Below, in pieces: positions 3,381 through 38,722 of a stretch of DNA of 64,000 nucleotides. Within the stretch, counting starts at the first letter, position 1. The number at the start of each line of letters is the position of its first letter. Both the position numbers and the translations under genes were made by a program. Origin of the DNA: Arenicola marina (Eukaryota > Annelida > Polychaeta > Arenicolidae). The notes under the pieces are model-generated. The model was not told where the DNA came from. It saw nothing but the letters and a program-made list of their open reading frames with translations, and did no database searches. The stretch covers positions 43,526,156-43,590,155 of the forward strand of contig OZ025252.1 of assembly GCA_964019135.1 (NCBI GenBank), read 5' to 3'.

Positions 3381-3413
3381 ACAGGCCTGCTCCACCGGCA
3401 ACACTCCCCAAAC

Positions 3414-3451: not shown

Positions 3452-3475
3452 CCGCTTGCTCTGCTTTCCTTTGTT

Positions 3476-3664
3476 ACTGACAGAAGTTGAAAACTTCTGT
3501 CAGTATACTGCTATGTTCGGTTTGTAAATTTATTTATTACTGACAGAAGTTGAAAACTTCTGTCAGTATACTGCTATGTTCGGTTTGTAAATTTATTTAT
3601 TACTGACAGAAGTTGAAAACTTCTGTCAGTATACTGCTATGTTCGGTTTGTAAATTTATTTATT
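3476..3664 (+). repeat. Three 63-bp repeats with a perfect hairpin (element left terminus)
   Basis: Three tandem copies starting at 3476, 3539 and 3602. Each begins with ACTGACAGAAGT, a TGAAA loop, and ACTTCTGTCAGT, a perfect 12-bp palindrome, followed by an AT-rich tail. The hairpin arm is the inverse of the motif next to the element's 3' termini. Confidence 0.9.
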
Positions 3665-6600
3665 TATTTGTTTTTTTGTTTGTATGTTTTTGCGCTCGAT
3701 CTAGGGCGCATGGTTAGAGTTACGGTTGTCAAAGTTCACCAAGTGATAGATATATGAAATAGCTCGGCTAAGTTCGTTATTGGCATATGTAGGTCAAAGG
3801 TCAAGGCCACAGCGATTTTTTGAAAAAAAAGTTAAGAACGCGTCTATCTCCCTTAATATTAGGTCTAGAGACTTCGGGTAAGTTTCAGAATGTGCTACTA
3901 TTTAAGGCGCATCTTTCAGCCGTTGATCACTTTTTGACGCGTCATACTCATTTTCGAGCTACATGACGTTTTATGTTTTCCGAAAAACGCCAAAGATGAC
4001 CTTGAACGGTTGTGCTGCGATTTGACCACTTTAGGTTAAAGATATCACTCTGGTGTTCTGGCCTCTCATAAAAATATAAATGAAACTGGCCCCTGTGAAA
4101 TCTGAGATTTTTCGCATGCGTCATATGACGTCAGGATGACGTCACTTTTGGTACATACAAAAAATCGTCAAAAATCGGAAAAAAATGTTAAAAATACAAA
4201 AATGGCGCCGTATGGTAGGGAAAAAGATTCCTAGTTCAGCAGAATAATAAAAACAATATGTTCCAATCTTACTTCCGGTTCCAAGGGTGACGGCAATTCC
4301 CTATGGGACCTCCCATGTTAAAGCCCTCAATCTCTCAGGCTGGGGAAATTTTGTTTGCCCCGTATTTCATAGGTGCCTGCATCAAACAGTTTCGGGATTT
4401 TTTCGTTGGTTAAACAAGGTACCCAGTAACCATGGTCCTTACTAGAGGGAATGCGGATAGTAACTGACGTCACAGGATTTTTTTGAAATTTTCCCTATTG
4501 TGAAAGATAGGGATTTTTGGGGCTTGCAGGGGCTCCCACGGGCGTCCTATTGAAGCCGACGCTCTATGTTTTCAGTTGTTGATGGATAGTAGTAGGATGA
4601 GTCATTAACTATAAACACGGCGACATAGCCTTGTAACTTTTCGGTATATAGTCGAACGCGTTTAACATGGGACCCTATGGAGATAATCAAACTTCCTTCA
4701 ATATGACGTACTTTCGGTTGAGCGATCTCACTTTGCTTTACCACGGTACGAGATGTGGACGAGTACAAGAGACTCAGAGTAGACTGACGGCAAACGCGTG
4801 TCTCAGTTTCGTTTCCATGGCAACCGAAGATTTTCCCAATGATAAAGTATACAAATTCCCTCTAACTTAGCAAATTCGTCAAAAATCAGAAAAACTAGCT
4901 AGACCTTCGATCTTTGCGTATAATGGTAGGGTAGATATGTCTCCAGATTACTATTGGCAGTAAAGCATTATTATCCTTCTCATCTTAGCTGCAGAGTCTT
5001 TTCTTCGTCTGCTCGTTTTTCATTTATCCGCAATGGTGAACAATAGCAATTTTCGGAAATTGGGTGAACTAATATCTGAAGGACTAACAGTCCTACCGCC
5101 GTTCTAATCAACGTTTTGGATTGAGGGCACAAATGTTTGTGTTTAGATATTTGGACGTTGTCGTGCGTCATGCCATGACGTCACCGTGACGTAATGACGT
5201 CTTAATTTGTTGAAGGCCATTCCTCGGCTATAATACGTCACAGCGACTTCCGGTTGATTTGACGTTATACCTCATACTAAGGCACAACTGGTGCCATGCG
5301 TAACTTTTTTTGCGGTACTGAAACGTGTGCGTCAAAAATGACGTCCAAGTTTACATTACCCGACGTAATTGCAAAATCGTTTCATTTACACCTAGTTAGG
5401 CACTAGCTACCATCACTATAAGTATATAAGCAGGTAACATGGGAATTTAGAAGCCAAATTGTTTATTTTTGGTGAGCGTCAGTGACGTCATGTGACGTCA
5501 CGTTGACGTTTCCATGGTAACGGAACTAAGCCCAATGATAAAGTATAGAGATTCTGGCCAAATTGGAAAATTCGTCAAAAATCAGAAAAACTAGCTAGAC
5601 CTTCGATGTTTGCGTATAATGATAGGGAAGATATGCCTCCAGATTACTATTGGCAGTAAAGCATTATTATCCTTTACATCTTAGCTGCAGTCTTTTCTTC
5701 GTCTGCTCAATTTCCATTTATCCGTAATGATGAAGCATAGCAATTTTCGGTAATTAGGTGGAGCTATATCTGAAGGACTAACAGTCCTACTGCCGTTCTA
5801 ATCTGCGTTTTGGATTGAGGGCACCAATGTTTGTGTTTAGATGTTTGCACATTTCCGTGCGTCACGCCATGACGTCACCATGACGTGATGACGTCATAAT
5901 TGTATAACCTCTATTACTCGACTATTATCCATCATAGCGACTACCGGTTGATTTGACGCTGTACCTTATATCAAGGGACAACTGCCGCGATGCGTAACTC
6001 TTTTTGCGGTACTGAAACGTGTGCGTCAAAAGTGACGTGCACCTCGCGTTAAACGGCGTATTGAACTTGAAAGGGCCATAACTCGGTTAAGCCCAGATTT
6101 GGCATGAAGCGAGAGGCAATTGTATAGTTATCTACGGTAAATGGCGATAGAATTGCTCTAGGGCGCTTAGTTTGGCCGCTAGAGCGCTCGCAAGAGGTGC
6201 ACCCCCCTTTGCTGAAGCTCCCATTATGAGTCAACGGCGATATCGAGCGGCAATGACTCTGCTTTGCGATGGCCGCCGTTTGCTTAAAAGCGACGCTAGA
6301 GAGTCGGGACTGGTTTGAAAGGACGGGCAAACGTCGACTTTGGTGAGGAATCCGCATTCGCCTCTAGCCTAGCACGCTTAGTTTTGACGCTGGAGGGCTC
6401 CGTAATTTAGCAATGATGAGTCCGAGAACAGGCATTAGGGCGGGTCCAAGCACACGTAGAAAGTCGGGATTTGGCCGAATTCACTCAAAATGGTGCCCTC
6501 TATCTGGGAAAACAGCCCGCGTTGAACAGCAGCCGTTAGATTGTGCTATTCCAGCATCCGCATCGTAGAGGTCCAATTTGGGCCAAAATGCGCTTTCAGC

Positions 6601-6942
6601 GAGGCCAATACGGCTATCAGTGGGCAGTGTGGGCTAGAACGCCTTCGGATATTGGCATTATTGATCCCAAATTGGCCATTTTGGCCATATTTAGCCCAAA
6701 TTGGCCGCTGAAGGCTGTAATTATTCCAATTCGCCCGTTTATAGCGCTATTTAGCCCACGTTGTTCGTTCAAGGAGCTGTTTAACCAAATATGCCCACTG
6801 AAGGCATCATGTAGTCAGCATGAGGCAAAATCAGCTTATAGTATATGTGTTTCTGCATGTCATCGCCTGTACCATATTTTCGGCGCATGAACGGTGATCT
6901 GAAAAGTCACTTCTGTCAGTACCTCAGCCTACGGCTGTCTTG
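3663..6942 (+). repeat. 3.28-kb tandem unit 1 (non-autonomous Helentron-like)
   Basis: First of the head-to-tail units, 3280 bp, almost identical to the next one. It contains eight exact TGACGTCA octamers, two related internal blocks (about 4860-5530 and 5560-6060) and short GGCC-containing repeats near 6660-6800. It ends with ACTTCTGTCAGT (6909-6920) and the CAGCC-TAC-GGCTG hairpin (6925-6937). No credible gene: the open frames of 67-115 aa recur only because the DNA is duplicated, and they match no family I know. Confidence 0.85.
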
Positions 6943-9900
6943 TTTATTTGTTTTTTTGTTTGTATGTTTTTGCGCTCGATCTAGGGCGCATGGTTAGAGT
7001 TACGGTTGTCAAAGTTCACCAAGTGATAGATATATGAAATAGCTCGGCTAAGTTCGTTATTGGCATATGTAGGTCAAAGGTCAAGGCCACAGCGATTTTT
7101 TGAAAAAAAAGTTAAGAACGCGTCTATCTCCCTTAATATTAGGTCTAGAGACTTCGGGTAAGTTTCAGAATGTGCTACTATTTAAGGCGCATCTTTCAGC
7201 CGTTGATCACTTTTTGACGCGTCATACTCATTTTCGAGCTACATGACGTTTTATGTTTTCCGAAAAACGCCAAAGATGACCTTGAACGGTTGTGCTGCGA
7301 TTTGACCACTTTAGGTTAAAGATATCACTCTGGTATTCTGGCCTCTCATAAAAATATAAATGAAACTGGCCCCTGTGAAATCTGAGATTTTTCGCATGCG
7401 TCATATGACGTCAGGATGACGTCACTTTTGGTACATACAAAAAATCGTAAAAAATCGGAAAAAAATGTTAAAAATACAAAAATGGCGCCGTATGGTAGGG
7501 AAAAAGATTCCTAGTTCAGCAGAATAATAAAAACAATATGTTCCAATCTTACTTCCGGTTCCAAGGGTGACGGCAATTCCCTATGGGACCTCCCATGTTA
7601 AAGCCCTCAATCTCTCAGGCTGGGGAAATTTTGTTTGCCCCGTATTTCATAGGTGCCTGCATCAAACAGTTTCGGGATTTTTTCGTTGGTTAAACAAGGT
7701 ACCCAGTAACCATGGTCCTTACTAGAGGGAATGCGGATAGTAACTGACGTCACAGGATTTTTTTGAAATTTTCCCTATTGTGAAAGATAGGGATTTTTGG
7801 GGCTTGCAGGGGCTCCCACGGGCGTCCTATTGAAGCCAACGCTCTATGTTTTCAGTTGTTGCTGGATAGTAGTAGGATGAGTCATTAACTATAAACACGG
7901 CGACATAGCCTTGTAACTTTTCGGTATATAGTCGAACGCGTTTAACATGGGACCCTATGGAGATAATCAAACTTCCTTCAATATGACGTACTTTCGGTTG
8001 AGCGATCTCACTTTGCTTTACCACGGTACGAGATGTGGACGAGTACAAGAGACTCAGAGTAGACTGACGGCAAACGCGTGTCTCAGTTTCGTTTCCATGG
8101 CAACCGAAGATTTTCCCAATGATAAAGTATACAAATTCCCTCTAACTTAGCAAATTCGTCAAAAATCAGAAAAACTAGCTAGACCTTCGATCTTTGCGTA
8201 TAATGGTAGGGTAGATATGTTTCCAGATTACTATTGGCAGTAAAGCATTATTATCCTTCTCATCTTAGCTGCAGAGTCTTTTCTTCGTCTGCTCGTTTTT
8301 CATTTATCCGCAATGGTGAACAATAGCAATTTTCGGAAATTGGGTGAACTAATATCTGAAGGACTAACAGTCCTACCGCCGTTCTAATGAACGTTTTGGA
8401 TTGAGGGCACAAATGTTTGTGTTTAGATATTTGGACGTTGTCGTGCGTCATGCCATGACGTCACCGTGACGTAATGACGTCTTAATTTGTTGAAGGCCAT
8501 TCCTCGGCTATAATACGTCACAGCGACTTCCGGTTGATTTGACGTTATACCTCATACTAAGGCACAACTGGTGCCATGCGTAACTTTTTTTGCGGTACTG
8601 AAACGTGTGCGTCAAAAATGACGTCCAAGTTTACATTACCCGACGTAATTGCAAAATCGTTTCATTTACACCTAGTTAGGCACTAGCTACCATCACTATA
8701 AGTATATAAGCAGGTAACATGGGAATTTAGAAGCCAAATTGTTTATTTTTGGTGAGCGTCAGTGACGTCATGTGACGTCACGTTGACGTTTCCATGGTAA
8801 CGGAACTAAGCCCAATGATAAAGTATAGAGATTCTGGCCAAATTGGAAAATTCGTCAAAAATCAGAAAAACTAGCTAGACCTTCGATGTTTGCGTATAAT
8901 GATAGGGAAGATATGCCTCCAGATTACTATTGGCAGTAAAACATTATTATCCTTTACATCTTAGCTGCAAAGTCTTTTCTTCGTCTGCTCAATTTCCATT
9001 TATCCGTAATGATGAAGCATAGCAATTTTCGGTAATTAGGTGGAGCTATATCTGAAGGACTAACAGTCCTACTGCCGTTCTAATCTGCGTTTTGGATTGA
9101 GGGCACCAATGTTTGTGTTTAGATGTTTGCACATTTCCGTGCGTCACGCCATGACGTCACCATGACGTGATGACGTCATAATTGTATAACCTCTATTACT
9201 CGACTATTATCCATCATAGCGACTACCGGTTGATTTGACGCTGTACCTTATATCAAGGGACAACTGCCGCGATGCGTAACTTTTTTTGCGGTACTGAAAC
9301 GTGTGCGTCAAAAGTGACGTGCACCTCGCGTTAAACGGCGTATTGAACTTGAAAGGGCCATAACTCGGTTAAGCCCAGATTTGGCATGAAGCGAGAGGCA
9401 ATTGTATAGTTATCTACGGTAAATGGCGATAGAATTGCTCTAGGGCGCTTAGTTTGGCCGCTAGAGCGCTCGCAAGAGGTGCACCCCCCTTTGCTGAAGC
9501 TCCCATTATGAGTCAACGGCGATATCGAGCGGCAATGACTCTGCTTTGCGATGGCCGCCGTTTGCTTAAAAGCGACGCTAGAGAGTCGGGACTGGTTTGA
9601 AAGGACGGGCAAACGTCGACTTTGGTGAGGAATCCGCATTCGCCTCTAGCCTAGCACGCTTAGTTTTGACGCTAGAGGGCTCCGTAATTTAGCAATGATG
9701 AGTCCGAGAACAGGCATTAGGGCGGGTCCAAGCACACGTAGAAAGTCGGGATTTGGCCGAATTCACTCAAAATGGTGCCCTCTATCTGGGAAAACAGCCC
9801 GCGTTGAACAGCAGCCGTTAGATTGTGCTATTCCAGCATCCGCATCGTAGAGGTCCAATTTGGGCCAAAATGCGCTTTCAGCGAGGCCAATACGGCTATC

Positions 9901-10225
9901 AGTGGGCAGTGTGGGCTAGAACGCCTTCGGATATTGGCATTATTGATCCCAAATTGGCCATTGAAGGCCATATTTAGCCCAAATTGGCCGCTGAAGGCTG
10001 TAATTATTCCAATTCGCCCGTTTATAGCGCTATTTAGCCCACGTTGTTCGTTCAAGGAGCTGTTTAACCAAATATGCCCACTGAAGGCATCATGTAGTCA
10101 GCATGAGGCAAAATCAGCTTATAGTATATGTGTTTCTGCATGTCATCGCCTGTACCATATTTTCGGCGCATGAACGGTGATCTGAAAATTCACTTCTGTC
10201 AGTACCTCAGCCTACGGCTGTCTTG
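6943..10225 (+). repeat. 3.28-kb tandem unit 2 (non-autonomous Helentron-like)
   Basis: Second copy, 3283 bp, with scattered single-base differences from unit 1 and small indels. It carries the same eight TGACGTCA sites and the same terminus: ACTTCTGTCAGT at 10192-10203 and hairpin at 10208-10220. The junction with unit 1 reads TCTTGTT then TATTTG, without the 63-bp hairpin repeat. Confidence 0.85.
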
Positions 10226-13081: not shown

Positions 13082-14948
13082 ATTCATAGAAATGGACTTC
13101 CGGTCATGTGCACTATACTCGCCAGGCGGCGCACCAAGCGCAGGTGAAAACAAACGCACGTGGCCCATACATTTGCATGCGTTCCGCTCTGATTCTCCAC
13201 CGTACCGAACGCCGTACTTGCCCTATATATATATGTAGCGCTGCCTATGCAAATAAGATAACGCCGAAGCAGTACAAGGTCTGGGGGTGCCCCAACCCCA
13301 ATATGCAAGACGGGGGGTGGGGTGGGGGGGGGGGACCTCCCCTCCCATTTTGAAGAAGAATGTTATTTCTATCTGGTCAAGGGTTTTATTTTTTCTTTGC
13401 CAAATTTAGGGCAAGCATTATTGTTAGCTAGGAGTCAAAAATCATTTGATCTATAGAGCATTATATCACTTTTTTTAGCCACCCCCCGCCCCCCCTCAAA
13501 AAAAGAAAAACCCTTAAGGAAAGTATTTTGTATCCTTTCAAGGTTACCTCTTCTGTGATAAATTAAGTATTTTCTTCTCTCAACAAATGGGATACCCGTT
13601 GGATTAATTCTCTCAACAAATGGGGATACCCACTGGATTAATTCATTGTGTCTAATATTAAAATTCAAGCAATTCTGTCAAGTTCAATGCAAGCTTCTTT
13701 TTTTCGGGGGTTATGGGGGTGAAACACTGAGAACATGGACCTAAAAACATCAGAGATCTTAGATCAGACATCTGGAAAAATCAAATATCACACATCAGAG
13801 AAACATCTGAGATCAAAGATACTGCCTTTACATATCTAAGATCAGAGACCAGAGGTCTGAAAAAGATCACAGAACATGCCAACTAAAAAATCAGAGATCA
13901 GAGAACATGCCAACCAAAAAAAAAGACCAGAGAACTAAGCCACCCTGTTCCACCCCCCCCCCCCCCCCCACCCCCCTTTTTGTTAGGAAGAGAATTTTCT
14001 GTCAAGTGCAAAGCAAGTTTATTTTATATCCACAAATTGAGGGCAAGAGAAAATGCCTTTCCCCCAAATTCAGGGTATGCATTTGTTTTGGGCCTTATTA
14101 ATTAGGACCACTGAATTAGGTCTGTTTCTAATTATGTGTCAGCAATAGGAGGTAAAAATTCGGCAGCAACAAATGAGAGATAGGCATATCCACTGGATAA
14201 ATGTAAATTATGATGTTTCAATATGCATCCTGACCTACATCAATTTGTTTCTGCATTAAGTTTTTTTTCCGGCTGCATGACTTGTATGGGTCTACTCTAA
14301 CGCTTTCCAGTTCTCATGGACTTGCAATCATAAGTACCTGTATTTACAATTATATGTATCAACTATAACAGGTGAAACATTTACAATAAATATCTAAGGC
14401 TACTATAGAACCTGCAATTTAGCAATTGAGAAAATGTTCATCAATGTATGTTTGGGTAGGAACTGTAAAGACATACATTCCATAATAACATAATTCAGTA
14501 AGTGAGCTCTGGAAGTCAGGCGATAAAATATTAGGGTTAGAAATCCTATGTTACTGAACAAATTATCAATACCCTAGGGTTCTCGATCCCCCCCCCCCCC
14601 CCCCCCACACACACACGTACAGTCCAAACGGGATTCATCCAAAGAAGACGGTCACCTACTTCTCTGTTGCTTCGTTGGGCTTTAGGTCAGCTACTTTTAG
14701 TTTTCTGGGTACCTGGCACTAACTACGCCAGGTAGGGTTTCCAAATAGTATTAGGACATAGCACAATGAAATAAAAACAGACGCAAACCCACGGAACAAA
14801 ACTAGTACAAAGACACCAAAAACACGAGATTTGTATGCAGATTTATAACCACGTGGCAATGTTTTCACCTGCGCGATAACGAGGCTCCGTATTTTCACCT
14901 ACTACGCATGCGCACCAAAATTGTGACGTCAGGCCATTTCTATGAATT
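13082..14948. mobile_element. Possible inverted-repeat element, about 1.9 kb
   Basis: ATTCATAGAAATGG at the left (13083 region) reappears inverted at the right (about 14935-14948). Further in, GCAGGTGAAAAC followed by an ACGTGG block at 13139-13160 is inverted near 14850-14880. The interior has poly-C/poly-G runs (13310-13334, 13950-13970, 14590-14606), an ATCAGAGATC-rich stretch (13745-13935) and octamer motifs (ATTTGCAT near 13170, ATGCAAAT near 13247) around a TATATATATA run. No coding capacity and no clear target-site duplication. Confidence 0.4.
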
Positions 14949-15063
14949 GCTGATCCGATCGTGTGTTTACCAGGCCTGGGTCTTGACTTGGCCTAAAGTC
15001 AGTCATAAATGCCGTAGACTCACGTTTCGGCCCATATTTTCCACCAATTTGTCGCATTCGCTC

Positions 15064-15480
15064 TAAAACTCACTGACGTGAGAAAGCAACACCGTGCAAT
15101 TTTAATGATACCAAACTTACATGTGTACTGCGATGTCATCCTTGTTTATGACACAAATATAGAAATAATATTTCTCCATAGAGCTGACACTCCATTGCCA
15201 ACAGACACTTTGTCGCAAATAGACTAAATCACAGACAATGAAATGCTCTATAATTGCCATGGCGCGCGTGGCTGGTACAAATATAGAGCATCTATTGTTC
15301 AGAGCATGTTCGGCGCCATGGCAACTACGTCCTCTTATGACGTATGCTTTAGTATATTTGTGGAACCGCGTTTGCTGCCAATGGAGTGTCAGCATGGAGA
15401 AATATTATTTGTGGGTGGCTCTAGTGCCAGCGACCATCAGGTCTTAACTGCAGTCTCCCAACCCTGTGAATGAATCTGTT
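15064..15480. mobile_element. Hairpin (foldback) element, copy 1
   Basis: Left half 15150-15260 and right half 15270-15415 are imperfect inverted copies. Shared blocks include AATATTTCTCCAT, CTGACACTCCATTG, ATAGAGCAT and GCCATGGC. Likely a foldback MITE. The short open frames across it are products of the palindrome. Confidence 0.5.
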
Positions 15481-15589
15481 GCTCTTTGTTTTCTTACGCC
15501 ACTTGTTATTTCTGATATATTCACTTGCGACTATTGACTTGACTTGACTTGTTTGTGTCTTATTTTCTATGAATCATTTTGAAAATCAC

Positions 15590-22860: not shown

Positions 22861-23709
22861 TCAACATTACTCCAGTCAAATACCTTTTAGCAAGGTCTGC
22901 GAAATACCTTACCATATACTGAGAACTATTTTACTTTGAAAGATCCTTTCTGTCTGTGAATTCGTCCGTGAGATTCACTTGTAAAGTTAGTGTGCAGTCC
23001 CAAAAACACGTACGACGTGACAGTCTGTACAAGATACGCTTTGAACTATTCCGTCAAAGATACGTCAATAATCTGTATTGTACCCTGTGACATACGCTCC
23101 TAAATATACTCTTGTGACATAAAGATCCTCTGTGTTATTCTGAAAGAGATTCAGTGAAATATACTGTGATATCATTGTCTGACGTCGTGATCTATACAAC
23201 ATCAAGACGTACCTGTGCAAAGTACCTCTGGACAAATACCGGAGCAAGAAAGTGCCACTGTACGTATTAAGCTGAACTTCAATCGAAGGAAACACCTGTG
23301 GACGTGAACAAGATTGAGCTTTATCTGCAATCTACTGTTGTACTTTATTAAATATATTTCCATTATATATCTATCGTACCGTCACTTACCACAGTAAACA
23401 CACTGGTCTTCTTTCCGTATTGAGCTGCATACTACTGTTGTACTTAATAAATATATTTGCAAGATATCTTTTGCACCTTTACGCGAAGGTCTTCCATTTC
23501 TTTACTATTGGTCTTCCATTTCTCTTTCCATTATTTTAGTCTTCATTAAATCTATTCATTGAATTTTGAGCGTATAGTTCTTACTTCACTGTGATAATCT
23601 TCCAATATTTGCTAACGTTCGTAATATAATTTATCGTCTTCGACACATTACGTAAGGTATTAGATCCAATCTAGATTTCACTTTCAATTGATTCTGATTT
23701 GAAGACAGT
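22861..23709. other. Leader region upstream of the Helentron ORF
   Basis: Degenerate minisatellite remnants, then an AT-rich stretch with two related segments (about 23310-23360 and 23420-23470, each with ACTGTTGTACTT). No gene. May hold the ORF promoter, but no confident TATA box was assigned. Confidence 0.4.
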
Positions 23710-26700
23710 ATGCCCCGATTAAAGAAAGCAAGTGAAGCACAAAAACGAAATGCGAACAAGTTACGCGCGCGGAACCGTCTCTCAACTATTGCCGACTGCG
23801 AAATTGATCTGGCTGATGGTCCGAAGTCTATGCCTGCAATCGGCCAGGTTGAGAAGAGAACACGTGAAAAGGAAACTGTGGCTGCCAGTAATACGAGGCG
23901 TTCTAAGGTTAGAGCAGCAATAACAGCTCGACGTTCTGCTGAAAGTCCGTCAGAAGTAGCTGTCCGACTGGCGAGCATGAGAAAGGCTGCGCAAGTGTTA
24001 CGTTCTACTGAAACCCCGGATCAAACTGCTGCCAGACTTTCCAAAGTCAACCGCGCTATCAAAGAGCAGCGTTCAAACGAAACCCCTAAACAAACAGCTG
24101 CCAGACTGTCGAAAGTCAACCAGGCCATGAAAGAGCGGTTTTCAAACGAAACCCCTACACAAACAGCTGCCAGACTATCGAAAGTTACAAAAACTATGAA
24201 AGATCAACGCTCACGAGAAACCAAAGACAAAGCGTCTTCCAGACGTTTTAAAGTCAAACTGAAAATGAGAGAACATTTATCAAAACAATCTCAAGATGAA
24301 CATGATGCCAGAGGGTCTAAAATGAAACTCAGAATGAGAGAGCGTTATTCGGAACAACCTCAAGATGAACGTGATGCCAGAGTGTCTAAAATGAAACTCA
24401 GAATGAGAGAGCGTTATTCGGAACAACCTCAAGATGAACGTGATGCCAGAGTGTCTAAAATGAAACTCAGAATGAGAGAGCGTTATGCGAAACAATCTCG
24501 AGACGAACGTGATGCCAGTCGATCTAAGGTGAAAGAATGTGTCAAACAGCAACGGTCAAAAGAACGACCACAAGAGACTCACCGAAAACAGGCCAAAGTT
24601 AGAAACGCGATGGCCATTTTGCGAAAAGCACGACGGGGCACGGTACCGGATGTTACAGCTGTAATATCAAACTTCTTGAGCAAAGTGAAAGATGCGGCTG
24701 ACTATGTCTGTTGTTCCTGTCATCGCCTCATGTATCGAAGGACTGTGGTGCTGCTGAAGCAAAACAAGTACATCAAAACGCATGAGGAACTTCTCAGTGC
24801 AGTGCTGGCTCATAAGTTGGAATCTGTAAGTGGAAAGGAATGGATATGCCGAACTTGTCATCTGTCTCTCAAACGTGGCAAAATGCCAACTCAAGCGAAA
24901 TGTAACAAGCTAACATTGTCGCCTCAACCTTCTGAACTGAAAGAATTAAACAACCTTGAACTGAGATTAATCTCGCAAAGAATCCCGTTCATGAAAATGG
25001 TAGCACTCCCTCGAGGCAAGCAGCAGGGCATTCATGGCCCCGCAGTGAATGTGCCATCAAAGATAGATTACGTTTGCAAACAGTTCCCACGGTTACCATC
25101 TGAAACCGAACTGATTCCGCTGAAGCTGAAGCGTAAACTGCAGTACAAGACACACTACATGTATGATTACGTTCGCCCAGCCAAAGTACTGGCAGCATTG
25201 CGATGGCTCAAAGAAAACAACCCATTGTACGCTGACATTGTTATCAATGACAACTGGTCCGATGACTGCGAGAAGGATGATTCCAAACTCTGGCATTCCA
25301 TGACGAGTGATAATCCCTCACAAACGGAAAATTCCAGCATTGCATGTCATCCAGTTAATCCTACTCAACCACCAGTTGCGATGACAATTCCAACCAGTTC
25401 CGGTAACGATACATTTGACAGCGCTTTCAAATCTGTTGAAACAATGGCTAACCAGAGAGGCATGACAATTGTCAATGTCCCAGGAGATGGAGATTGCTTG
25501 TTTCATGCCATATGTCTCCATCTGAACAAAACTGAAAGAATGAGAATTGCACCGAGACAATTGAGAAAGAAGCTAGCTGACCACATGCGACAGCACCCAA
25601 TGTGTATGAACGGTTTGTACTATCGCGATTTCTTGGCTCAGCCACTCGAAGCGGATGATCCCATGAATGCGGACACAGAGAGACCTGGTGCAATTGACTA
25701 TGCCATAGCGCGTATCGATGATGTAAATACAAGACAAGAAATTCGTTGGCTCAAGTATCTTGATGATCTGGAGGATGGAACTCAATGGGGCGAACACTTA
25801 GCTGTGCAGGGTCTAGCTGACATGCTTGACGCAACCATTCATGTCGTAGCATCAAACAATCCTAACATGGATGCAGTACGCCCAATGCACGGGGATGGTG
25901 TCCACGAATTTCACATTGGTCTTATTCAGCAATTCCATTACGTTGCGTTGGTCAACAAGGCAAATGAACCTACACACGAAGAAGTGGTAGAAACCACAGT
26001 GGATGGCGAAACAGTGAATTCTGATGATGAAATGGACGAGGAAAACGCTACAGCGTTTGCACGTGCACAGAGAATCAGTGGTTCACCGTATGAAACAAGC
26101 TTATTGGCAGAAAATCCCATTGATACAAATGCCGAGCTTCACATCGCTCCAGCTGAAGATCAGAAACCCATGCCGCTCCTCAGTGATACCCACTTCGAAG
26201 AACTTGCCAATCCCGATAAATACCCCGACGGGAAAAATGCTCTCACTGCGGAAAGAGAAACACCAATCCATCCCAGAAAGTACTTCAATCAAAGGTTACT
26301 AGACCAGGATGGTAGATTTGCGAAATCCGTAGAATATCTGCTGAGCGCTCAATACGCCGTCGAAAGTAAACATGTGCAAAGTGCAACCAACCATTTCATG
26401 TTCCGTCGCATGACTAAAAAAGAATTTCGTGGCAACAGAATCAATGCACAGTTTGTAAAAAATGCGGACAAAATCAAGCAACTTGTGCAAACTGATCACG
26501 CATACAAGCTGTTGAAACAAGTCAGAGGATCACCTGCGTATTTCCAATCAATCTTCTATGATGTGCTTGCCATGGTCAGACAATTGGGCATACCCACTTG
26601 GTTCATGACTCTGACGTCAGCAGATATGCTATGGCCAGACATGATCCAGACAATTGCGAGACAATACGGAACGGTTTTGAGCGATGAAGATGTTAAGAAC

Positions 26701-29700
26701 ATGCCTTTGCAAGACCGACACAAATGGCTAAGAACGAATCCAGTGACAGCTGCACGTCACTTTGAATACCGACTCGAATTGCTGTTCACCGACGTAATCA
26801 AATCAAAGATCCACCCACTAGGTGAACTGATAGATTACGTCTCGCGCATTGAGTTCCAAACCCGTGGTTCTCCTCACGCACATATCCTCTTGTGGATAAA
26901 AGATGCACCGAAACTCGATGTTCAAACGGATGTAGAAGTGTGTGACTTCATTGACAAGCATGTCAGTTGCAACCTTCCCCAAGAGCCATCTGTGCGTGAG
27001 TTTGTGAAGCACATCCAACAGCACAACCACTCTTCGTACTGCCGGAAAAAAACACACTGCAGGTTCAGATACCCGCGTCCGCCCACTTCAGTTACAATAC
27101 TCGCCAGAGAGCCAGATGAGAGTCTTGAAAAGGTCGAACTCATGACACGTACAACTGAAACTCTGAAGTCCGTCCGTGCAGTACTTGATGAGAAAGAAAT
27201 GGATGACAACGTCACTCTGGCCACTATCCTGCGGAAGGCAGAAGTTACTGAAGAACAATACACAAATGCATTGTCCGTGTCTCAACGAGGCAACAACGTT
27301 GTACTACAAAGAACACCTTCGGAACAATGCGTGAATCCGTACAACCCAACCATTCTCAACGCGTGGAAAGCAAACATGGATTTACAGTACGTGCTGGATC
27401 CTTATGGTTGCGTTATGTACCTTGCTGCTTACATGACAAAAAGCGAGAGGAACATGGGAGAACTTCTCAAAGCGGTACTGAAAGAGAGTAACGATGCAGA
27501 CGTCAAAACGACTCTCAGACGTATGGGTTCTGTGTTCTTGAATCACCGTGAGGTCAGTGCGCAAGAAGCCGTGTACCGTCTGCTTTCGATGCCTCTCAAA
27601 CGATTCAGCAGAGAAGTCCTGTTCGTCGACACCAATCGCCAATCCGAAAGAGCCGGCGTGTTGAAATCTGCAGATGAACTGGCAAACAAAGATGATGAAG
27701 ATGAAGATATCTTCCAAAGAAATCTGATCGACAGGTATACCGCGAGACCTGATGAACTGGAAGAACTGAGCTTGGCTGAATTTGCGTCTCGCTATGCTAC
27801 AAATTACACGAAAAATGACAATGGTGACAGCATGCCTCAGGTACTGGATGACAATGGCAATGAAAACCCAGTCGATATTGAGCCGGATGGCTTGCCGAAA
27901 CGTATCACACTCAAAAACGGCATCGGTACAATGCGAAAGAGAAGGCGCCCAGCAGTCATTAGATATCACCGCTTTCGACAGGAAAAGGAATCAGAGGAAT
28001 TCTTTCGTGCGAAGCTGATGCTATTTGTTCCATGGAGAAACGAGAGCGTTGATTTGATTGGCAATTGCAGAAATTTTGCCGAACGCTACGCACAGATTGA
28101 GCAACGAATTCAACTGCTTGAATCGCGGTTCTCAAACAATGTTGACCTCATTGACCGAGCCATCTTAGAGAATGCTGCCTATGGTCCGCCAGAGCACGTG
28201 TGGGAAAACGTTGCGCCCGAAGCAGAACACCAAAGGCTACAGGATGAAGGCGAGGGAATAGATGTGGAAACACAAATCGAGCAGGAAGATCTTGATGCCA
28301 ATGCGGCAATGATCACAGGAAATGTGTCTGACAACCACGCCGACATGATTGCACGATATGAAGCCCAATCCAACAGTCATGTATTGACACCGGCAGAATA
28401 CCGTAAAATGATGCGTGACCTAAACGAAGAACAAAAGCAAATCGTGACCTACCATCGCAAATGGTGCAAGAAAGCCGTGATCTCCATAAAGGAAAACAAG
28501 CCAGTGAAACCGTACAGGGTTTTCATGAGTGGGCCTGGTGGTGTTGGCAAAAGCCATGTGATACGCCTCATTCAATCCGATACAAAGAAACTGCTAGCAC
28601 TGTCTCAACGTTTCACACCGAATGATGTCACAGTTCTTCTTATGGCTCCAACTGGTGTAGCGGCATTCAACATCAGCGGTATGACAATCCACTCGGCGCT
28701 CCTTATGCGGGTTTCCAAATATGGCAACAAGTATGAGCCACTTTCCTTCGAAAAACTCAACACACTTCGCACAAAACTCCAAACGGTGCAGTTGATCATT
28801 ATCGATGAAATATCGATGGTTGGACCAAATATGCTGCTGAATATCCACAAGAGAATGTGTGAGATCAAAGGCCATTCTGGAGATGACGTTTGGTTCGGCA
28901 ACGCTTCCGTTCTAGCAGTCGGAGACCTGTACCAACTGCCGCCTGTGTGTCAACCGTATATCTTCGAGCCGATCACGGATGCAATGGCAAGCTTATACTA
29001 CGGTGGTATTTGGACAGACGAGTTTGAGTTCCATGAGCTGCATCAGAGCATGAGGCAACAAGGAGACCAAGCGTTTGCGGACGTGTTGTATCGATTGAGA
29101 ACAGGCGAAGCCACCGCAGATGACATCAGTGTCCTTGGTTCACGGAACATCAGCGTTGACAGCGAGCCGTATCCCCACAACGCCCTTCACCTGTTTGCGC
29201 GAAATGTTGACGTCGACGTACACAACTCCGCGATGCTTGACAAGTTGGTCCCCAAAGACAAACAGGTTCCTATTGTGGCTGTTGATGACAAGAGAGACAT
29301 CACCGGTACATTAGATATGGCACAACTCACAACCCCTGCAACGCGATCCAAAACTGGTGGCATGGATACCGTTCTCACTGTGGCAATCGGAGCGCGCGTA
29401 ATGATGACCGCGAATGTTGACACGGCTGATGGACTGGTCAATGGAGTTGTTGGAGAACTTCAGGGCATCATCAAGAACAATGCAAATGCCGTGAGCACGC
29501 TACTCGTCAAGTTTGACAACGACAAAGTGGGCAAGAGTGCCATTTCTGGTAGTCCATGGAAGACAGACTTTCCGGAAGCCGTTCCTGTAAAGCGTCATGA
29601 AGTACACTATGAAAAGTGTCAATCTAAAGGGTCACAAGTCACACGTCACCAATTTCCGCTAACCCTAGCGTGGGCTGTCACCATCCATAAATGTCAGGGT

Positions 29701-30585
29701 CTAACACTAGACGAAGTCGTTGTCAGCATGAAAGGTGCAAGACGTTTTGGTCAAGGCCAGGCATACGTAGCGTTCAGTCGTGTCAAGAAGCTGAGTGGAC
29801 TCAATATCACTGACTTCGATGCATCAGGTGTTAAGGCTAACAAGAAAGTGTCAAAAGAAATGGAAACGATGCGCAAGAAGCTCATCAACCCTGAAACACT
29901 GACGATGCTAACCGCGAAGAGCGCTGACGACATTACAATTGGACACTTGAACGTTCCCTATTTCTTGGATAAACTGAACGATTTGCAAAGCGCGAGTGAA
30001 AACAACATCTGGCACAACACCGACGTCATGTGCTTCAGCGAAACTTACCTAACACCAGCGCATGACATAGATCGCTTTCTGCTTCAGAATGACCTCAAAG
30101 CATTTAGACAAGACGTTCCACACGAACACAACCACGCTGGGAAACACGGCGTCATGATTTGTGCATCTGCTCACCTGGACCCGCAGGAATTAACCGTGGC
30201 AAATATAGATGGTCTGGAATCAAAGGCAGTTGCTGTACAGACAGTCCATTCAAGACTAGTGGTTTGTGTTGTGTACCGCCCACCATCTCTCGCTATGACC
30301 ACGTTCTTCCCTCGTCTCGAGACCTTGTTGGCCAGACTGCCACTGCATGTTCCAACGTTTCTTCTCGGTGACATGAACGACAATCTGGCGAACCAACCAA
30401 CATCGGCGCTTGTCGCCTTGATGGCAAAATGGGGATTCCAGCAGTACGTCACTGAACCGACAACGCCTGACGGTACTCTCATCGACCACATCTATTGCAA
30501 CAGACAGCTGGACAGTGCGACTGTAGACATCCACGACGTCTACTACTCGAATCACGATGCAACATTCATTACAACACACCTTTAA
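23710..30585 (+). CDS. Helentron Rep-OTU-helicase-endonuclease protein
   Basis: One uninterrupted ORF of 2291 aa with the full domain set of an autonomous Helentron (Helitron2). The N-terminus is basic, with about 20-aa repeats (residues 90-180) and 23-aa repeats near 200-270, two of them almost identical in DNA. A Cys/His zinc motif follows (C334, C337, C380, C383, H384). An OTU-like cysteine protease has DGDCLFHA with C596 and a distal H743. The HUH Rep domain has H1056-A-H1058 and a tyrosine pair Y1237/Y1241. The Pif1-type SF1 helicase has Walker A GPGGVGKS (K1614), Walker B IIIDE (D1699, E1700), GDLYQLPPV and TIHKCQG. A C-terminal exonuclease-endonuclease-phosphatase domain has SETYL (E2111), YRPP, GDMND (D2221) and SNHD (H2282). 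Expected to nick, unwind and transfer element DNA by rolling circle. No stop or frameshift is seen, so it may be functional. Confidence 0.95.
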   Translation: MPRLKKASEAQKRNANKLRARNRLSTIADCEIDLADGPKSMPAIGQVEKRTREKETVAASNTRRSKVRAAITARRSAESPSEVAVRLASMRKAAQVLRSTETPDQTAARLSKVNRAIKEQRSNETPKQTAARLSKVNQAMKERFSNETPTQTAARLSKVTKTMKDQRSRETKDKASSRRFKVKLKMREHLSKQSQDEHDARGSKMKLRMRERYSEQPQDERDARVSKMKLRMRERYSEQPQDERDARVSKMKLRMRERYAKQSRDERDASRSKVKECVKQQRSKERPQETHRKQAKVRNAMAILRKARRGTVPDVTAVISNFLSKVKDAADYVCCSCHRLMYRRTVVLLKQNKYIKTHEELLSAVLAHKLESVSGKEWICRTCHLSLKRGKMPTQAKCNKLTLSPQPSELKELNNLELRLISQRIPFMKMVALPRGKQQGIHGPAVNVPSKIDYVCKQFPRLPSETELIPLKLKRKLQYKTHYMYDYVRPAKVLAALRWLKENNPLYADIVINDNWSDDCEKDDSKLWHSMTSDNPSQTENSSIACHPVNPTQPPVAMTIPTSSGNDTFDSAFKSVETMANQRGMTIVNVPGDGDCLFHAICLHLNKTERMRIAPRQLRKKLADHMRQHPMCMNGLYYRDFLAQPLEADDPMNADTERPGAIDYAIARIDDVNTRQEIRWLKYLDDLEDGTQWGEHLAVQGLADMLDATIHVVASNNPNMDAVRPMHGDGVHEFHIGLIQQFHYVALVNKANEPTHEEVVETTVDGETVNSDDEMDEENATAFARAQRISGSPYETSLLAENPIDTNAELHIAPAEDQKPMPLLSDTHFEELANPDKYPDGKNALTAERETPIHPRKYFNQRLLDQDGRFAKSVEYLLSAQYAVESKHVQSATNHFMFRRMTKKEFRGNRINAQFVKNADKIKQLVQTDHAYKLLKQVRGSPAYFQSIFYDVLAMVRQLGIPTWFMTLTSADMLWPDMIQTIARQYGTVLSDEDVKNMPLQDRHKWLRTNPVTAARHFEYRLELLFTDVIKSKIHPLGELIDYVSRIEFQTRGSPHAHILLWIKDAPKLDVQTDVEVCDFIDKHVSCNLPQEPSVREFVKHIQQHNHSSYCRKKTHCRFRYPRPPTSVTILAREPDESLEKVELMTRTTETLKSVRAVLDEKEMDDNVTLATILRKAEVTEEQYTNALSVSQRGNNVVLQRTPSEQCVNPYNPTILNAWKANMDLQYVLDPYGCVMYLAAYMTKSERNMGELLKAVLKESNDADVKTTLRRMGSVFLNHREVSAQEAVYRLLSMPLKRFSREVLFVDTNRQSERAGVLKSADELANKDDEDEDIFQRNLIDRYTARPDELEELSLAEFASRYATNYTKNDNGDSMPQVLDDNGNENPVDIEPDGLPKRITLKNGIGTMRKRRRPAVIRYHRFRQEKESEEFFRAKLMLFVPWRNESVDLIGNCRNFAERYAQIEQRIQLLESRFSNNVDLIDRAILENAAYGPPEHVWENVAPEAEHQRLQDEGEGIDVETQIEQEDLDANAAMITGNVSDNHADMIARYEAQSNSHVLTPAEYRKMMRDLNEEQKQIVTYHRKWCKKAVISIKENKPVKPYRVFMSGPGGVGKSHVIRLIQSDTKKLLALSQRFTPNDVTVLLMAPTGVAAFNISGMTIHSALLMRVSKYGNKYEPLSFEKLNTLRTKLQTVQLIIIDEISMVGPNMLLNIHKRMCEIKGHSGDDVWFGNASVLAVGDLYQLPPVCQPYIFEPITDAMASLYYGGIWTDEFEFHELHQSMRQQGDQAFADVLYRLRTGEATADDISVLGSRNISVDSEPYPHNALHLFARNVDVDVHNSAMLDKLVPKDKQVPIVAVDDKRDITGTLDMAQLTTPATRSKTGGMDTVLTVAIGARVMMTANVDTADGLVNGVVGELQGIIKNNANAVSTLLVKFDNDKVGKSAISGSPWKTDFPEAVPVKRHEVHYEKCQSKGSQVTRHQFPLTLAWAVTIHKCQGLTLDEVVVSMKGARRFGQGQAYVAFSRVKKLSGLNITDFDASGVKANKKVSKEMETMRKKLINPETLTMLTAKSADDITIGHLNVPYFLDKLNDLQSASENNIWHNTDVMCFSETYLTPAHDIDRFLLQNDLKAFRQDVPHEHNHAGKHGVMICASAHLDPQELTVANIDGLESKAVAVQTVHSRLVVCVVYRPPSLAMTTFFPRLETLLARLPLHVPTFLLGDMNDNLANQPTSALVALMAKWGFQQYVTEPTTPDGTLIDHIYCNRQLDSATVDIHDVYYSNHDATFITTHL

Positions 30586-34080: not shown

Positions 34081-34554
34081 TAATCTGGCATTTTATACGA
34101 ATTGCAATTCGCCCCGCCAGTTTACATTTTATATTCAGAATGGCGATAATAAGTTAACTATATTCATAATTCCCTTAAAGCGACAGGCAGGGCATATTCG
34201 AATTGCCATAGAGACGAAGTAAGAATTTAAATATACCATTTACGGTAACGTCACCATTATTCGACAGAATTGAGCTATTCTTACATTTCGTTTGGGCGCG
34301 TAGTAAATACCGAAAGAATTAGAGTCTGACAAGCATTTCATTTTGTTTTTCTTTATTAACCTGGTGTCAAAGCACAAAAATCAATGTCCCAAAGTGCACG
34401 AAACAGGAAAGTCCGAAGACGACCGCATATAAAACTATGCATTGTCTTTTTTCCGCCGCCGTTTTGCGGCTGAAAACTAAAATGTACACGTAAATTTCGA
34501 AGATGAAACTTCCTTCAGTAATAAAGCAATCCGCTAGCACATTAACCGCACATC

Positions 34555-34830
34555 AGCCATTGCGGTGGCTAGTGGTATTCCGCTCTGCATCCTGATCTTT
34601 GGTCCACATCATTGCGGTGGCTGGTACTCTTCGGCTCAGCATCCTCATCTTTGGTCCACAGCATTGAGGTGGCTGGTACTCTTCGGCTCAGCATCCTGAT
34701 CTTTGGTCCACATCATTGCGGTGGCTGGTACTCTTCGGCTCAGCATCCTGATCTTTGGTCCACATCATTGCGGTGGCTGGTGCTCTTCGGATCTGCATCC
34801 CGATCTTTGGTCCACAGCATTGCAGTCGCC
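34555..34830. repeat. 52-bp tandem repeat, about five copies
   Basis: Units built on GATCTTTGGTCCACATCATT and GCGGTGGCTGGTACTCTTCGG, period 52 bp. The stop codon of the RPA-like gene (34765-34767, minus strand) falls inside it, so the repeat supplies the protein's last residues. Confidence 0.8.
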
Positions 34831-36156
34831 GGCGTTCTTCCCCACTGCTGTCTGCTCTTGTCGCAGATTCAGTTTCCGAATTACGTTGTTGCTCACCTCA
34901 GCGGTCACCTCCGGTAGCAACAGGAGGTACTCCTCAAAGTCCTCCAACTGGGACACTTGTAGAAATTCAATTCTCCCATTTCTGCGAAGGAATTCTTCCA
35001 TCGCCCCTTGAAACATCGTGTACTTGTCTTCCCCGATGTCCACGTAACCGACGACACTGCTCTGGACTTTAGACGTTTTCTGTTTCATTTTGCAGCCTTC
35101 ACACCGAGTGAAGACTGCCTTGGGATCAAACGTCGCAATCTTTTTCTTGCAGTTGCTGCATTTGACGGCAGCCCAGATGTGGGCTCTGGTGATTTCACCT
35201 GTCACGGTTTTGTTGTCACCCGTTGCGACGACTGCTGAAGACACCGTGCCTACGTCACTGCACTCGACGATACGTGTCGTTGGTGTGCAAGTTAGACAGT
35301 TCAGCCCCTGAAAGTCCCGCACAGCGACATGGTGAAATGCGTAGCAGCACCCCACATGGACTTCTCCAATTTGAGCGCCCCACACTGACAAGTCGATGCT
35401 CCCGCTCTTGTCAGCCACCTGAATAGTTTGCCGCAAAAGCGTTGATTCTCGCACTTGTTTCTCCTCGGGCTCACCGGCCTTCACAACTTTGCCCGAGATA
35501 TTAATCTGAAAATACAATAAAAATAACCACATTAGCCCAGTCCATTAACTGGCTAAATGGCACACAAAAATCTATCAGCACCACAGGGAATATGTCGGTA
35601 CCTATTCCTTTAATTAACCGCTCCATATTTCTACGATTTATCACCCTGCAACTTATTCATACAGATAATAAATACATACACAGTACACGTATTACCGGAC
35701 GTCAGTCATTCAAGTAAGGATCGAGATAAGATAAATCACAAAAAAATGACATACCTTCTTTCCCTTCTCCAGACCGTATGCCTGTTCTACAGAGGTCATG
35801 TCTTCGCCACATTCTTCGATCTCTGGCCGCTCCTTGAAGCTGTATCCTACTTCGTGCAGCACCGTCTGCACAGCACTGTTGCGGCCCAACAAGATATCTT
35901 GCTTGTCAGGACGCCATTTGTCGGGAACGAATTCCACGTCCGACAATTTAACTGGAGACTTGCTGCTATGTAGGCTCTGGAGCTGCGCTCTCTTGTTTCC
36001 ATCAAACCCGACGAGGTCGTGGTAGGCCTCCCGGCCAGTTTGGATGACAGCGTTAAAATACATGGAATTCGACCTCCTGCTGCGTTTCTCGGGGGATAAA
36101 CCCACCACATACCCCAACACATCTTCAGTTCTCTTCTGTTCTCTTTTCTGACTCAT
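34765..36156 (-). CDS. RPA1-like single-strand DNA-binding protein, two exons
   Basis: Minus-strand gene: exon 1 36156-35755 (134 codons), intron 35754-35506 (GT...AG, GTATGT donor and TTTTCAG acceptor), exon 2 35505-34765 (246 aa plus stop). The join is in phase 0 and gives 380 aa. The protein resembles the large subunit of replication protein A. An N-terminal OB-like domain in exon 1 includes VVGLSPEKRSRRSNSMYFNA. A second OB-like segment follows (SGSIDLSVWG), then a zinc-ribbon CSNC...CEGC (C250, C253, C269, C272) as in RPA DBD-C. RPA-like proteins accompany many Helitrons and are thought to protect single-stranded transposition intermediates. The gene lies inside the same insertion, antisense to the Rep ORF, which supports that role. 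The C-terminus runs into a 52-bp minisatellite, so the native end may be altered. Confidence 0.8.
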
Positions 36157-37093
36157 GCTATTTGCTTACGTCTTCAATAAGAAGTCTTGTAAAGGCTTAA
36201 ATTTTCTCCGGTCTTTTATAGCAAAAAAACGGACGTTATAGTGAGCCCACGAGCGACACGAGGGATCGAAGTTTTAGGTCTCAAATGTTGTGCCAATGTG
36301 CGCTATTTTTTCACGATTTTGCCCTAAAGATATTGTTTAATGATCAAAGGGACTAATTTCAAACAGGCATATGAAACCTCACTGCTCAAGGTATATATTA
36401 GCATTTAATGTATGATTGTTGGACCTCTAAATCGTTTAAAAAAGATACAATTATGGCGATTCCCAATAACAGTACCGTGTTTTTTTCGCAAATTCAGCTT
36501 GATCCATTGAGCGCAGAATCCAGAAACACAAGTCGAATTTATTCCTAGATGTCAAGATCAAAATAAGCCGAAACAATAAATAACTAAAGCAACAAACCCT
36601 CAGTTAGAGAGCAAAACAGAGGTTCGCACTAGCACACACAATTAACATCAACCAGTACATTACACAGCTCATTGCACCAATATCTGCCATCGAACCACTA
36701 CATTATATCTCTGTTGGCGGGCTACTGCGTCAATACATTCGTACTCTCGCCCGCCAGGGCGGCGCTGCGCAAATTAATTGGGGAAAGCTGTGTCGCGTAT
36801 TTCTACAAATTAAAACCTGCGATCCGACTTAAGCCTAATAACACATGTATCATGTGATCCAAGGTGATAGTTCGCTCCTATTTTCGGCCTGTTTGGAAAG
36901 GAACACTGAATATTTTGCACTTTTACGTGCACAAGGCTCGTTTTTGTGCTATTTTATTCCTGCAGATGAATATTCCATTCGAAATTATAACTCATTCGAC
37001 AGTTTGTGAAAAATCTTTATATTTGCTCCCAGCCGACAGCAGCGGTCTGAGCGGAGGAACCGCGAGCGTCACCTAGCGAATTGGCTCGTTTTT
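36157..37093. other. Non-coding stretch upstream of the RPA-like gene
   Basis: AT-rich sequence without a credible gene. It should hold the promoter of the RPA-like gene (reading leftward), but no clear TATA box was assigned. Confidence 0.4.
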
Positions 37094-37772
37094 GTGCGTT
37101 ATGATTGGACACGTTATGATTATCCGGAATGCCAGTTCGAAATAAGACTTATTAAAACGTCAATAAAGGTCATGTGAACATATTGATGGCAGGTCCATGG
37201 GGCACATTATCACTGATTATGCGGGCACATTAAGCGGCTCTCCATCGCGTCCGCACCTATCTTCTATATTTATAGGCCTTGTTGAATGTGAAACCGGCCT
37301 GGCGTAAGAAAGCGTATAGTGCTTAAAGTCCGGCCCACCTTCGCATCCCTCAAAATAATATTATACGAATAATAAATAATACTGAAACCGGGTTTTTGAT
37401 ACTCTCTCTGCAAATGCTAATACATGGTGAGCATAGATTATTAGATATAAGAGAAAAATGCTTCAATTTTTTTTTTCGTTTCCATTCTATCGATTACCGG
37501 CGAAAGCGACTAATCTTTAGATATTTGTTTACATTACTCACCATTAATCATCAACGATTTATCCTCATAAACTACGTTTATAAAAACCTATTTGATGGAT
37601 TATACGGTAAAAAAACACGCCTGCCTCATGATTTGAACACACGAACCTACGATCTGAAGTCGCAAGCTCTATCCACTGCGCTAACAGGGCACTGAGCAAT
37701 TCGTTACGTTTTAGTACGTCTTATTTCGAACTGGCATTCCGGATAATCATAACGTGTCCAATCATAACGCAC
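37094..37772. mobile_element. 679-bp inverted-repeat MITE
   Basis: Perfect terminal inverted repeats of about 55 bp starting GTGCGTTATGATTGGACACG, at 37094-37148 and inverted at 37718-37772. The similarity continues imperfectly inward. No coding capacity. No clear target-site duplication. It sits inside the large insertion and holds a tRNA-like sequence near its right end. Confidence 0.8.
37619..37692 (-). repeat. tRNA-like pseudogene/SINE fragment
   Basis: On the minus strand, box A TAGCGCAGTGG (complement of 37673-37683) and a degraded box B (complement of 37630-37640). The anticodon stem pairs well around a CTTCAGA loop. The acceptor and T stems are mismatched, so not a functional tRNA. 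Confidence 0.5.
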
Positions 37773-38722
37773 TGAGGGTAGAAAGGCCATAACTCACGTA
37801 AACCAAGGTCCCATTCACCACGTTCCCCCGCTTTTGAAAACAAAACGGCCAAATCTAAAATAATCATTTCAAGAAGGAAACAATAAAATTACCTTTCATA
37901 TTTAATACAGCAAAATATTGCCTTGTATAAAATATAGATACCGTGTGTTAATAGACATAGGCTGGGTCTCAGACTTGAGTTGCATAAATGCGCAGCCCAT
38001 TTGCCCCTTGCATTTTCCAGCGTCACCAACGATATAGCGTATTAGGTTGATGTCAGAGAGTGATAACGAACCAGATGACCCCTACAAGCAGACTTTGGAT
38101 CTACCAAAAGCAGGCCAATGACGCAGTGCAACTAAAAAATGCAGACCGACTTTTATGTCACTAAATGTCACAAAAGAATGATAAAAATTGCATCATTTTG
38201 CAGTAGCGATCTCCCGTACGGCTGCATAATAAAAATACAAGGTTGCAACCTTATCCCCGGTTCCAGGGCACCCGCTAATTTGCCATAGGGATAGCCATGT
38301 TATGTTGTAAATTTGAGTTTTTTGTCGCCAGGGTATAGGGGGCACGGTAGCACGTACGGTCCGTTAAGATGAGACTTTGAGGCGAGTTGGTTGTAAAATG
38401 TGTCGCTCGATAATGCGCATCTTTCATAAGTTGTCCATACGGCAAGTTCCCTGGGACTTCCCATGTTATGGCCCTCCATCTCTCACGACGGAAAAAAAAT
38501 GTTGTGTATTTCACAAGTGCCTTCGTCAAACATTACCAAGATTTTTTTCAGTCTGTGGTTCGACATGGTACCCAGTAGCCACAGTGCGTACCATACGGCA
38601 TTCAAGTAAGAAAAGACGTCACAAGGTTTTTTCGGTGACGTCATGTGACCTTATGTCGGCGTTTCCATGGCATTGGAACTACGATTACTTCTGTCAGCAC
38701 CTCAGCCTACGGCTGTCTTGTT
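37773..38722 (+). repeat. Diverged 3.28-kb unit, right part with Helentron 3' terminus
   Basis: Several stretches parallel the 3.28-kb units, for example GGTACCCAGTAGCC near 38570 against GGTACCCAGTAACC near 4420, and TGACGTCATGTGAC near 38640. It ends in the family terminus, ACTTCTGTCAGC (38687-38698) plus hairpin (38703-38715), at the right border of the insertion. Confidence 0.7.

Follow-up and report, generated by a model that had tools for sequence, protein, structure and literature searches.

In T-rich DNA, Helentrons take TT as their insertion site (PMC4067079), and the Helitron2 elements of Fusarium oxysporum (FoHeli) bear 5′ duplications of less than 200 bp (31, 65, 73, or 85 bp), which duplications have been attributed to self-insertion (PMC5148889). 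That same study reports one non-autonomous element nested within an autonomous one, discusses repeated 5′-end insertion or the rolling circle as the source of a three-copy tandem in Metarhizium, and predicts surplus left ends if the move of a nested copy begins at an outer left end and stops at the first right end. Published work already covers Helentrons and their non-autonomous partners, the HINEs, as well as Helitrons in tandem and self-insertion as a source of multiple 5′ termini (PMC4067079, PMC5148889, PMC5876387). Here we analyze a stretch of 64,000 bp from Arenicola marina (hereafter, the window; contig C5, positions 43526156-43590155, in a genome of 867 Mb and 762 contigs), in which one histone repeat is interrupted by a 35-kb block that we read, with fair but by no means full confidence, as three successive rolling-circle insertions, nested one within another and built in place: an autonomous Helentron and two HINEs.

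The interrupted histone unit

The block lies within the spacer of a histone unit (unit A, comprising window positions 1-3473 and 38721 onward), the break following the H3 gene. At the left we read CCTTTGTT joined to ACTGACAGAAGT at 3476 (the join is also given as CCTTTGTT to ACTGACAG), and at the right GGCTGTCTTG joined to TTTATTTAAAACTG at 38720/38721; at the corresponding site the downstream units B and C of the window run unbroken as CCTTTGTTTATTTAAAACTG. The target is read as T and T, at a TTT, with these boundaries and joins coming from the assembled sequence only. A preliminary description had already recognized the intact target in units B and C, as direct reading confirms, and had set the insertion at 3476-38722; the insertion is real, and its exact ends shift to 3474-38720 under the empty-site rule that the histone site fixes, by which the left flank minus its last TT is continued by the sequence after the terminal TCTTG.

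With a 701-bp query spanning the site (window 45300-46000), for which the best 40 of 1,973 first-look candidates were scored, we obtained as a lower bound at least 29 histone units running unbroken through the site: 2 in the window and at least 27 further ones at C5:30.59-30.73 Mb. Of the other 11 among those best 40 matches, 2 were the two pieces of unit A, 3 came from partial duplications of the spacer, and 6 belonged to another unit type, in which the alignment ends some 20 bp beyond the site. As a separate observation, about 1 kb of spacer is duplicated in tandem in a histone unit at C5:30682700-30684600 (L045), the breakpoint being the TTTATTT that is also the Helentron target in the window, and two pairs of matches, at C5:30593490 and C5:30587303, show a pattern that resembles this duplication.

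Long repeats and histone arrays are difficult to assemble, so that a misassembly of either the histone join or the stack of ends has to be considered; we nevertheless hold this to be most improbable, since taking the block out at its two outer joins restores a clean empty site, unbroken in those 29 or more units, which result would be unlikely from a false join. Over the 200 bp next to each join, unit A matches units B and C at 98-100% identity, and over its right flank at 96-100%; its left part overall is only about 91-93% identical to them, the low values falling in spacers. Given the identity at the joins, nothing there hints at a false connection, and the more specific idea of an assembly join between unlike histone units was dropped on the basis of that windowed identity. 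The insertion looks exact and genuine.

Termini, inner joins, and the order of the units

The insert opens with a stack of three left termini, which Tandem Repeats Finder reports as 3.1 copies of a 63-bp unit in tandem at 3470-3664, each consisting of a palindromic subterminal inverted repeat (subTIR), then TATACTGCTATGTTCGGTTTG, and then the beginning of a T-rich tract. The right terminus—a subTIR, the hairpin CAGCC-TAC-GGCTG, and a TCTTG end—likewise occurs three times, at 6909-6942, 10192-10225, and 38687-38720. The subTIRs are identical over at least 11 bp, with CTGACAGAAGT...ACTTCTGTCAG at the left and ACTTCTGTCAG at 38687 at the right. The 11-mer arm was observed 9 times in the insert and the 13-mer hairpin 3 times, as against 0.02 per resampling and none, respectively, in 100 first-order Markov resamplings. 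Canonical Helitrons have 5′-TC...CTRR-3′ ends and insert between A and T; the ends found here are TTACTG...TCTTG, and the target is T and T.

Read as brackets, with left ends opening and right ends closing, the window gives ((( ))) after the removal of one spurious one-mismatch hairpin match at 32653. Neither of the two inner joins has a left terminus; both start inside the family's own T-rich tract, and both inner pairs, when the empty-site rule is applied, rebuild AAATTTATTTATTTATTTGTTTTTTTG, which is the unbroken tract found after the third left terminus at 3652. The first two units (HINE1 and HINE2) are non-coding and have both ends in common with the autonomous Helentron, as defines a HINE, and their longest frame, of 121 amino acids, matched no Pfam family. 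Their bodies (3664-6942 and 6943-10225) are 99.54% identical, with 12 mismatches in 3,277 positions, and HINE1 differs from a HINE on contig C12 by 16 mismatches in 3,274; this almost equal nearness to both suits separate arrivals from an active subfamily.

In the sequence of events that we propose, the autonomous Helentron of ~28.5 kb would have landed between Ts of the spacer that follows H3, a HINE would then have entered the T-rich tract ~60 bp inside the left terminus of that Helentron, and a second HINE would have entered the corresponding tract of the first HINE. With every such step, the insertion would strand the older 63-bp left terminus on the left, and place the rest of the older T-tract along with its body behind the newcomer's right terminus, the outcome being a left-end stack followed by head-to-tail bodies. 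Since Helentrons enter T-rich DNA at TT and their own left end has such a tract, that left end would itself be a target; the tract would thus be chosen through the Helentron preference for T-rich targets, and the HINEs presumably move by means of the Helentron's enzyme. We infer the order of events and that the nest arose here and not in a donor, as well as the pairing of left with right ends, for which we rely on the left-end stack, on the balance of the brackets, and on the fact that the inner joins of the window lack a left end.

The single family of ends, the hairpin at the right, and the insertion between Ts were correctly given in the preliminary description, yet the right terminus also lies at the two internal positions and the left terminus is present three times. 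Of the two interpretations put forward there, that of a single Helentron of unusual size, with tandem non-autonomous units of its own, is not favored, since the stacked left ends can be paired with internal right ends and the ends read as those of three nested elements; the other, in which separate insertions are nested in one another, gives the best fit.

The near-identity of HINE1 and HINE2 could also be expected from a rolling-circle concatemer or a local tandem duplication of one unit, which origin we regard as improbable for the window: a head-to-tail concatemer would not gather all three left termini at the start and leave none at the inner joins, for which reason the plain concatemer is disfavored here; and the third unit is the 28.5-kb autonomous element, of which only the first 1.95 kb and the last ~40 bp are closely common to the window HINEs.

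Table 1. Coordinates of the insertion and of the features within it (window positions).
Feature	Position	Strand	Description
Whole insertion	3474-38720	+	35,247 bp; histone-repeat spacer; no target-site duplication
Left terminus 1	3474-3536	+	63 bp; palindromic subTIR CTGACAGAAGTTGAAAACTTCTGTCAG; by bracket order, taken as belonging to the autonomous (outer) Helentron
Left terminus 2	3537-3599	+	63 bp; given to HINE2 by bracket order
HINE1, read as innermost insertion	3600-6942	+	3.34 kb; left terminus 3 and unbroken T-tract at 3652, then the body and a right terminus with subTIR at 6909, hairpin at 6925, and TCTTG
HINE2 remainder	6943-10225	+	Right part of its own T-tract, body, right terminus (hairpin 10208)
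Autonomous Helentron remainder	10226-38720	+	28.5 kb; T-tract (right part), then a 5′ region common to HINEs as far as 12175, coding interior, right terminus
Separate interspersed repeat	13082-14949		~1.87 kb; at least 21 further chromosomal/contig places at 85-98% identity
181-bp segment	20309-20489		Missing in C177A, C212, and C49
Helentron transposase open reading frame	23710-30585	+	Open frame 23698-30585, first ATG 23710, 2,295 amino acids; DUF6570, OTU, Rep (HUH), Pif1 helicase, AP endonuclease
RPA/SSB-like gene	34765-36165	-	Apparently two exons, 35710-36165 and 34765-35544
Segment missing in C177B	36702-37401		Includes an interspersed repeat at about 36698-37056
Outer right terminus	38687-38720	+	subTIR 38687-38697, hairpin CAGCC-TAC-GGCTG 38703-38715, TCTTG end

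End pairs and related arrays elsewhere in the genome

The right-terminus motif pattern has 420 exact matches in the genome, with none for its reversed control. Among the first 100 of those 420 (contigs C1 to C5), 16 right ends have a same-strand neighbor no more than 12 kb away, where 0.58 would be expected if they were evenly spread, and 2 have an opposite-strand neighbor within that distance. A protein search of the genome, in which the best 21 of 2,625 first-look candidates were scored, gave at least 27 matches, of which many are long open frames, so that related Helentrons are plentiful. Four autonomous relatives served for comparison: that at C212:33246-55000, cut by the contig end; C177A, which extends over 31.7 kb from 103161 to a right end at 134887 and whose interior is covered in parts; C177B, with its right end at 207041-207073; and C49, known by coordinates only.

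We followed end pairs over the window, C212, parts of C177 (with gaps in coverage at 105200-121701 and 135700-204900), and 16 of 31 further distinct left-end sites, taken in rank order. Out of 34 end pairs, 12 lead into a T-tract with its body, another 12 close on a further left terminus, and 8 on other flanks, the remaining 2 (both in L035) having damaged ends, so that the empty-site rule is not applicable to them. Nine of the 12 T-tract pairs give the family form (ATTT one to four times, then GTTTTTTTG), 2 nearly do so (L023, L034), and 1 does not. Left and right ends are balanced at 2:2 in L023, L025, and L034; L021 has 3:2, with its third unit still open at the edge of the covered sequence; and single left ends occur in an older subfamily (L011, L013, L014, L015).

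In a tree of 37 rows built from the common 5′ 1.9 kb, the neighboring units in L022, L023, L024, L025, L031, and L034 are not sisters, which result argues against concatenation or local duplication, the split in L031 being weakly supported. In several other arrays, then, neighboring units are unlike one another. C212:1-21000 consists of units in tandem, for the most part near-identical and of 3,480 bp; every unit has a single right terminus but three left termini, and at each of the joins a right end is followed by a T-run and then by three left ends; 5 of its 6 units are near-identical in the tree, the other being a shorter, different HINE. This spacing and likeness fit concatenation or unequal exchange, and a rolling-circle concatemer is retained as an explanation for much of that array.

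Several of these results weigh against nested insertion. First, tract rebuilding, which we tried as a proof of pairing, was found weak: the pair C212:30406/33231 fails to rebuild the tract form, the tract is modular enough that 84 of 132 mismatched combinations of left and right pieces fit that form too, and the 9 of 12 observed is reached in 1,134 of 5,000 shuffles. The rebuilding shows where the inner joins lie, namely in the T-tract, and is weak on which ends pair, so that less weight falls on the nesting reading and more on its rivals. Second, 12 of the 34 pairs close on another left terminus and 8 on other flanks, and surplus left ends are found, within the sequence covered, in L024 (4:2), in L027, L032, and L033 (2:1), in L035 (3:2), in C212 (3:1 per unit), and also in L022, L026, L028-L031, and L036; with so many loci having an excess, a stack alone is no proof of an equal number of nested bodies, and the left-end search was biased to stacked ends in that the query itself held two. 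Third, HINE1 and HINE2 are mutual nearest rows in the tree (path 0.0032) and belong to no well-supported set, which leaves room for local duplication, just as most of the C212:1-21 kb array and the two near-identical sister units of L026 go beyond what nesting alone would give. Finally, the last 1.1 kb of the outer unit (37573-38720) is unlike the 3′ end of C177B: within it only 38439-38632 resembles an older HINE subfamily, at ~78%, and only the terminus of ~40 bp is closely common to the HINEs, with 3′ capture, replacement, or loss in C177B as candidate explanations.

A rival reading is a nest assembled in a donor and then transposed as one, from its outermost left to its outermost right end, skipping the two internal right ends. 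The outermost ends and the one precise empty site are compatible with such a move; in L027, L032, and L033 a stack of two left ends is followed by a single right end and then by other flanks, so that outer left ends seem to be used; and a HINE directly precedes the autonomous unit in all 3 copies whose left side is covered (the window, C212, and C177A). Yet the two internal right ends, which represent the commonest form in the genome listing, would have to be bypassed, and the T-tract cut points at the joins between HINE and autonomous unit in C212 and C177A differ from those of the window. Nor did the whole 35-kb composite turn up again in a comparison with the two other autonomous left sides, those of C212 and C177A. 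We rate this one-step transposition as rather unlikely, though more probable than concatenation. As for successive nesting at the locus, its generalization can be offered only tentatively: the T-rich tract by the left terminus might be a preferred landing pad for the own family, so that HINEs would repeatedly be fed into autonomous left ends to form directional Russian-doll clusters (contig C177 has sequence of this kind at 96-136 kb and once more at 199-207 kb), which nests may move as composites or make HINE-autonomous chimeras, with multiple left ends and a choice of right ends.

The autonomous unit and its known counterparts

The preliminary description had placed a Rep/helicase/endonuclease frame and an RPA-like gene inside the block, and the Helentron identity is supported by the Pfam domains and motifs of the transposase. 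This protein matched Helitron_like_N (2e-34), PIF1 (2.1e-19), and, for its C-terminal AP endonuclease, Exo_endo_phos (7.6e-10), as well as DUF6570 and OTU. We read the Rep motifs EFQTRGSPHAH (at 1052 of the open frame) and YLAAYMTK, the Walker motifs, the endonuclease motifs SET, GDMND, and SNHD, and OTU motifs; the Helentron-diagnostic S is present in motif 2 (RGSPH), with FEYR upstream at 1022 of the open frame. Compared with the C212 copy over 1,381 codons, the nonsynonymous divergence (dN) is 0.009 and the synonymous (dS) 0.032, which values are consistent with purifying selection. Within the same frame, 69-bp tandem repeats (Pfam STPRs, PF21107) occupy window 24001-24534, and their copy number apparently differs between the window and C212. 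The second exon of the RPA-like gene has a weak OB-fold match to an archaeal SSB (E 1e-4), no SSB match was obtained for the other exon, and the gene has no Pfam RPA match; its two-exon homologue in C177A is 53-56% identical.

Further insertions lie inside the autonomous unit. The separate repeat listed in Table 1 is missing at the matching point of C177A, where the element sequence is continuous. Beyond 32088, C177A and C212 drop to about 70-80% identity and C177B remains at 97%, which difference marks the family as mosaic, and the last 0.7 kb of the HINEs is common to the 3′ ends of C177A and C177B. A foldback-like repeat lies at window 14983-15413, with genomic copies in both orientations (~90% one way, ~75% the other). 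Elsewhere in the window, an 850-bp insertion at 40809-41659, which the other units of the window lack, splits the H2B gene of the next histone unit immediately past its start; a tandem array of 43-bp period and ~90% identity extends over 60096-62849; and a second, more diverged array occupies 63190-64000, at the window's end.

If the nested reading holds, stacked left termini and rows of right termini may record the order of insertion, self-insertion—so far, in the papers cited here, proposed for the fungal Helitron2—becomes testable genome-wide, and a possible route appears from Helentrons to tandem, satellite-like arrays. The locus also documents, in an animal, a Helentron that has its coding motifs and measures about 28-32 kb, in a histone cluster with many empty target copies. 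In the literature on Helentron tandems and nesting and on Helitron self-insertion, from which subscription journals mostly fell outside the scope, no other animal-Helentron nests were apparent by title or by the start of the abstract.

The closest counterparts are the Helentrons and HINEs of PMC4067079, which have the same Rep, Pif1 helicase, and AP endonuclease in one frame, an RPA gene (to which the RPA-like gene here would be a putative counterpart), the same palindromic subTIRs, 3′ stem-loop, and TT insertion without duplication, HINEs with both ends of the autonomous elements, and a like motif-2 S and FEYR site. The 3′ subTIR lies 38-60 bp from the end in the mite families treated there, as opposed to ~23 bp here, and our case further differs from those Helentrons in the size of the autonomous unit (28.5 kb, or 31.7 kb in C177A), in the stacked left termini, and in HINEs apparently nested in their partner's left-end T-tract. 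The Pacific oyster Cg_HINE also combines T-rich targets with tandem repeats, though its repeats are central, satellite-like monomers and, in the part of that account considered, are linked to no autonomous partner, unlike here (PMC7492417). Canonical Helitrons such as Helraiser follow the same rolling-circle logic, with end bypass and with head-to-tail arrays in plants and bats (PMC5876387), and those of maize reach 39 kb through gene capture (PMC6431247). With respect to FoHeli, the surplus left ends at our loci would fit the prediction of the Fusarium study; the inner joins can here be placed base by base in the T-tract inside the left end, and the arrays mix HINE subfamilies with autonomous units of roughly 30 kb (PMC5148889).

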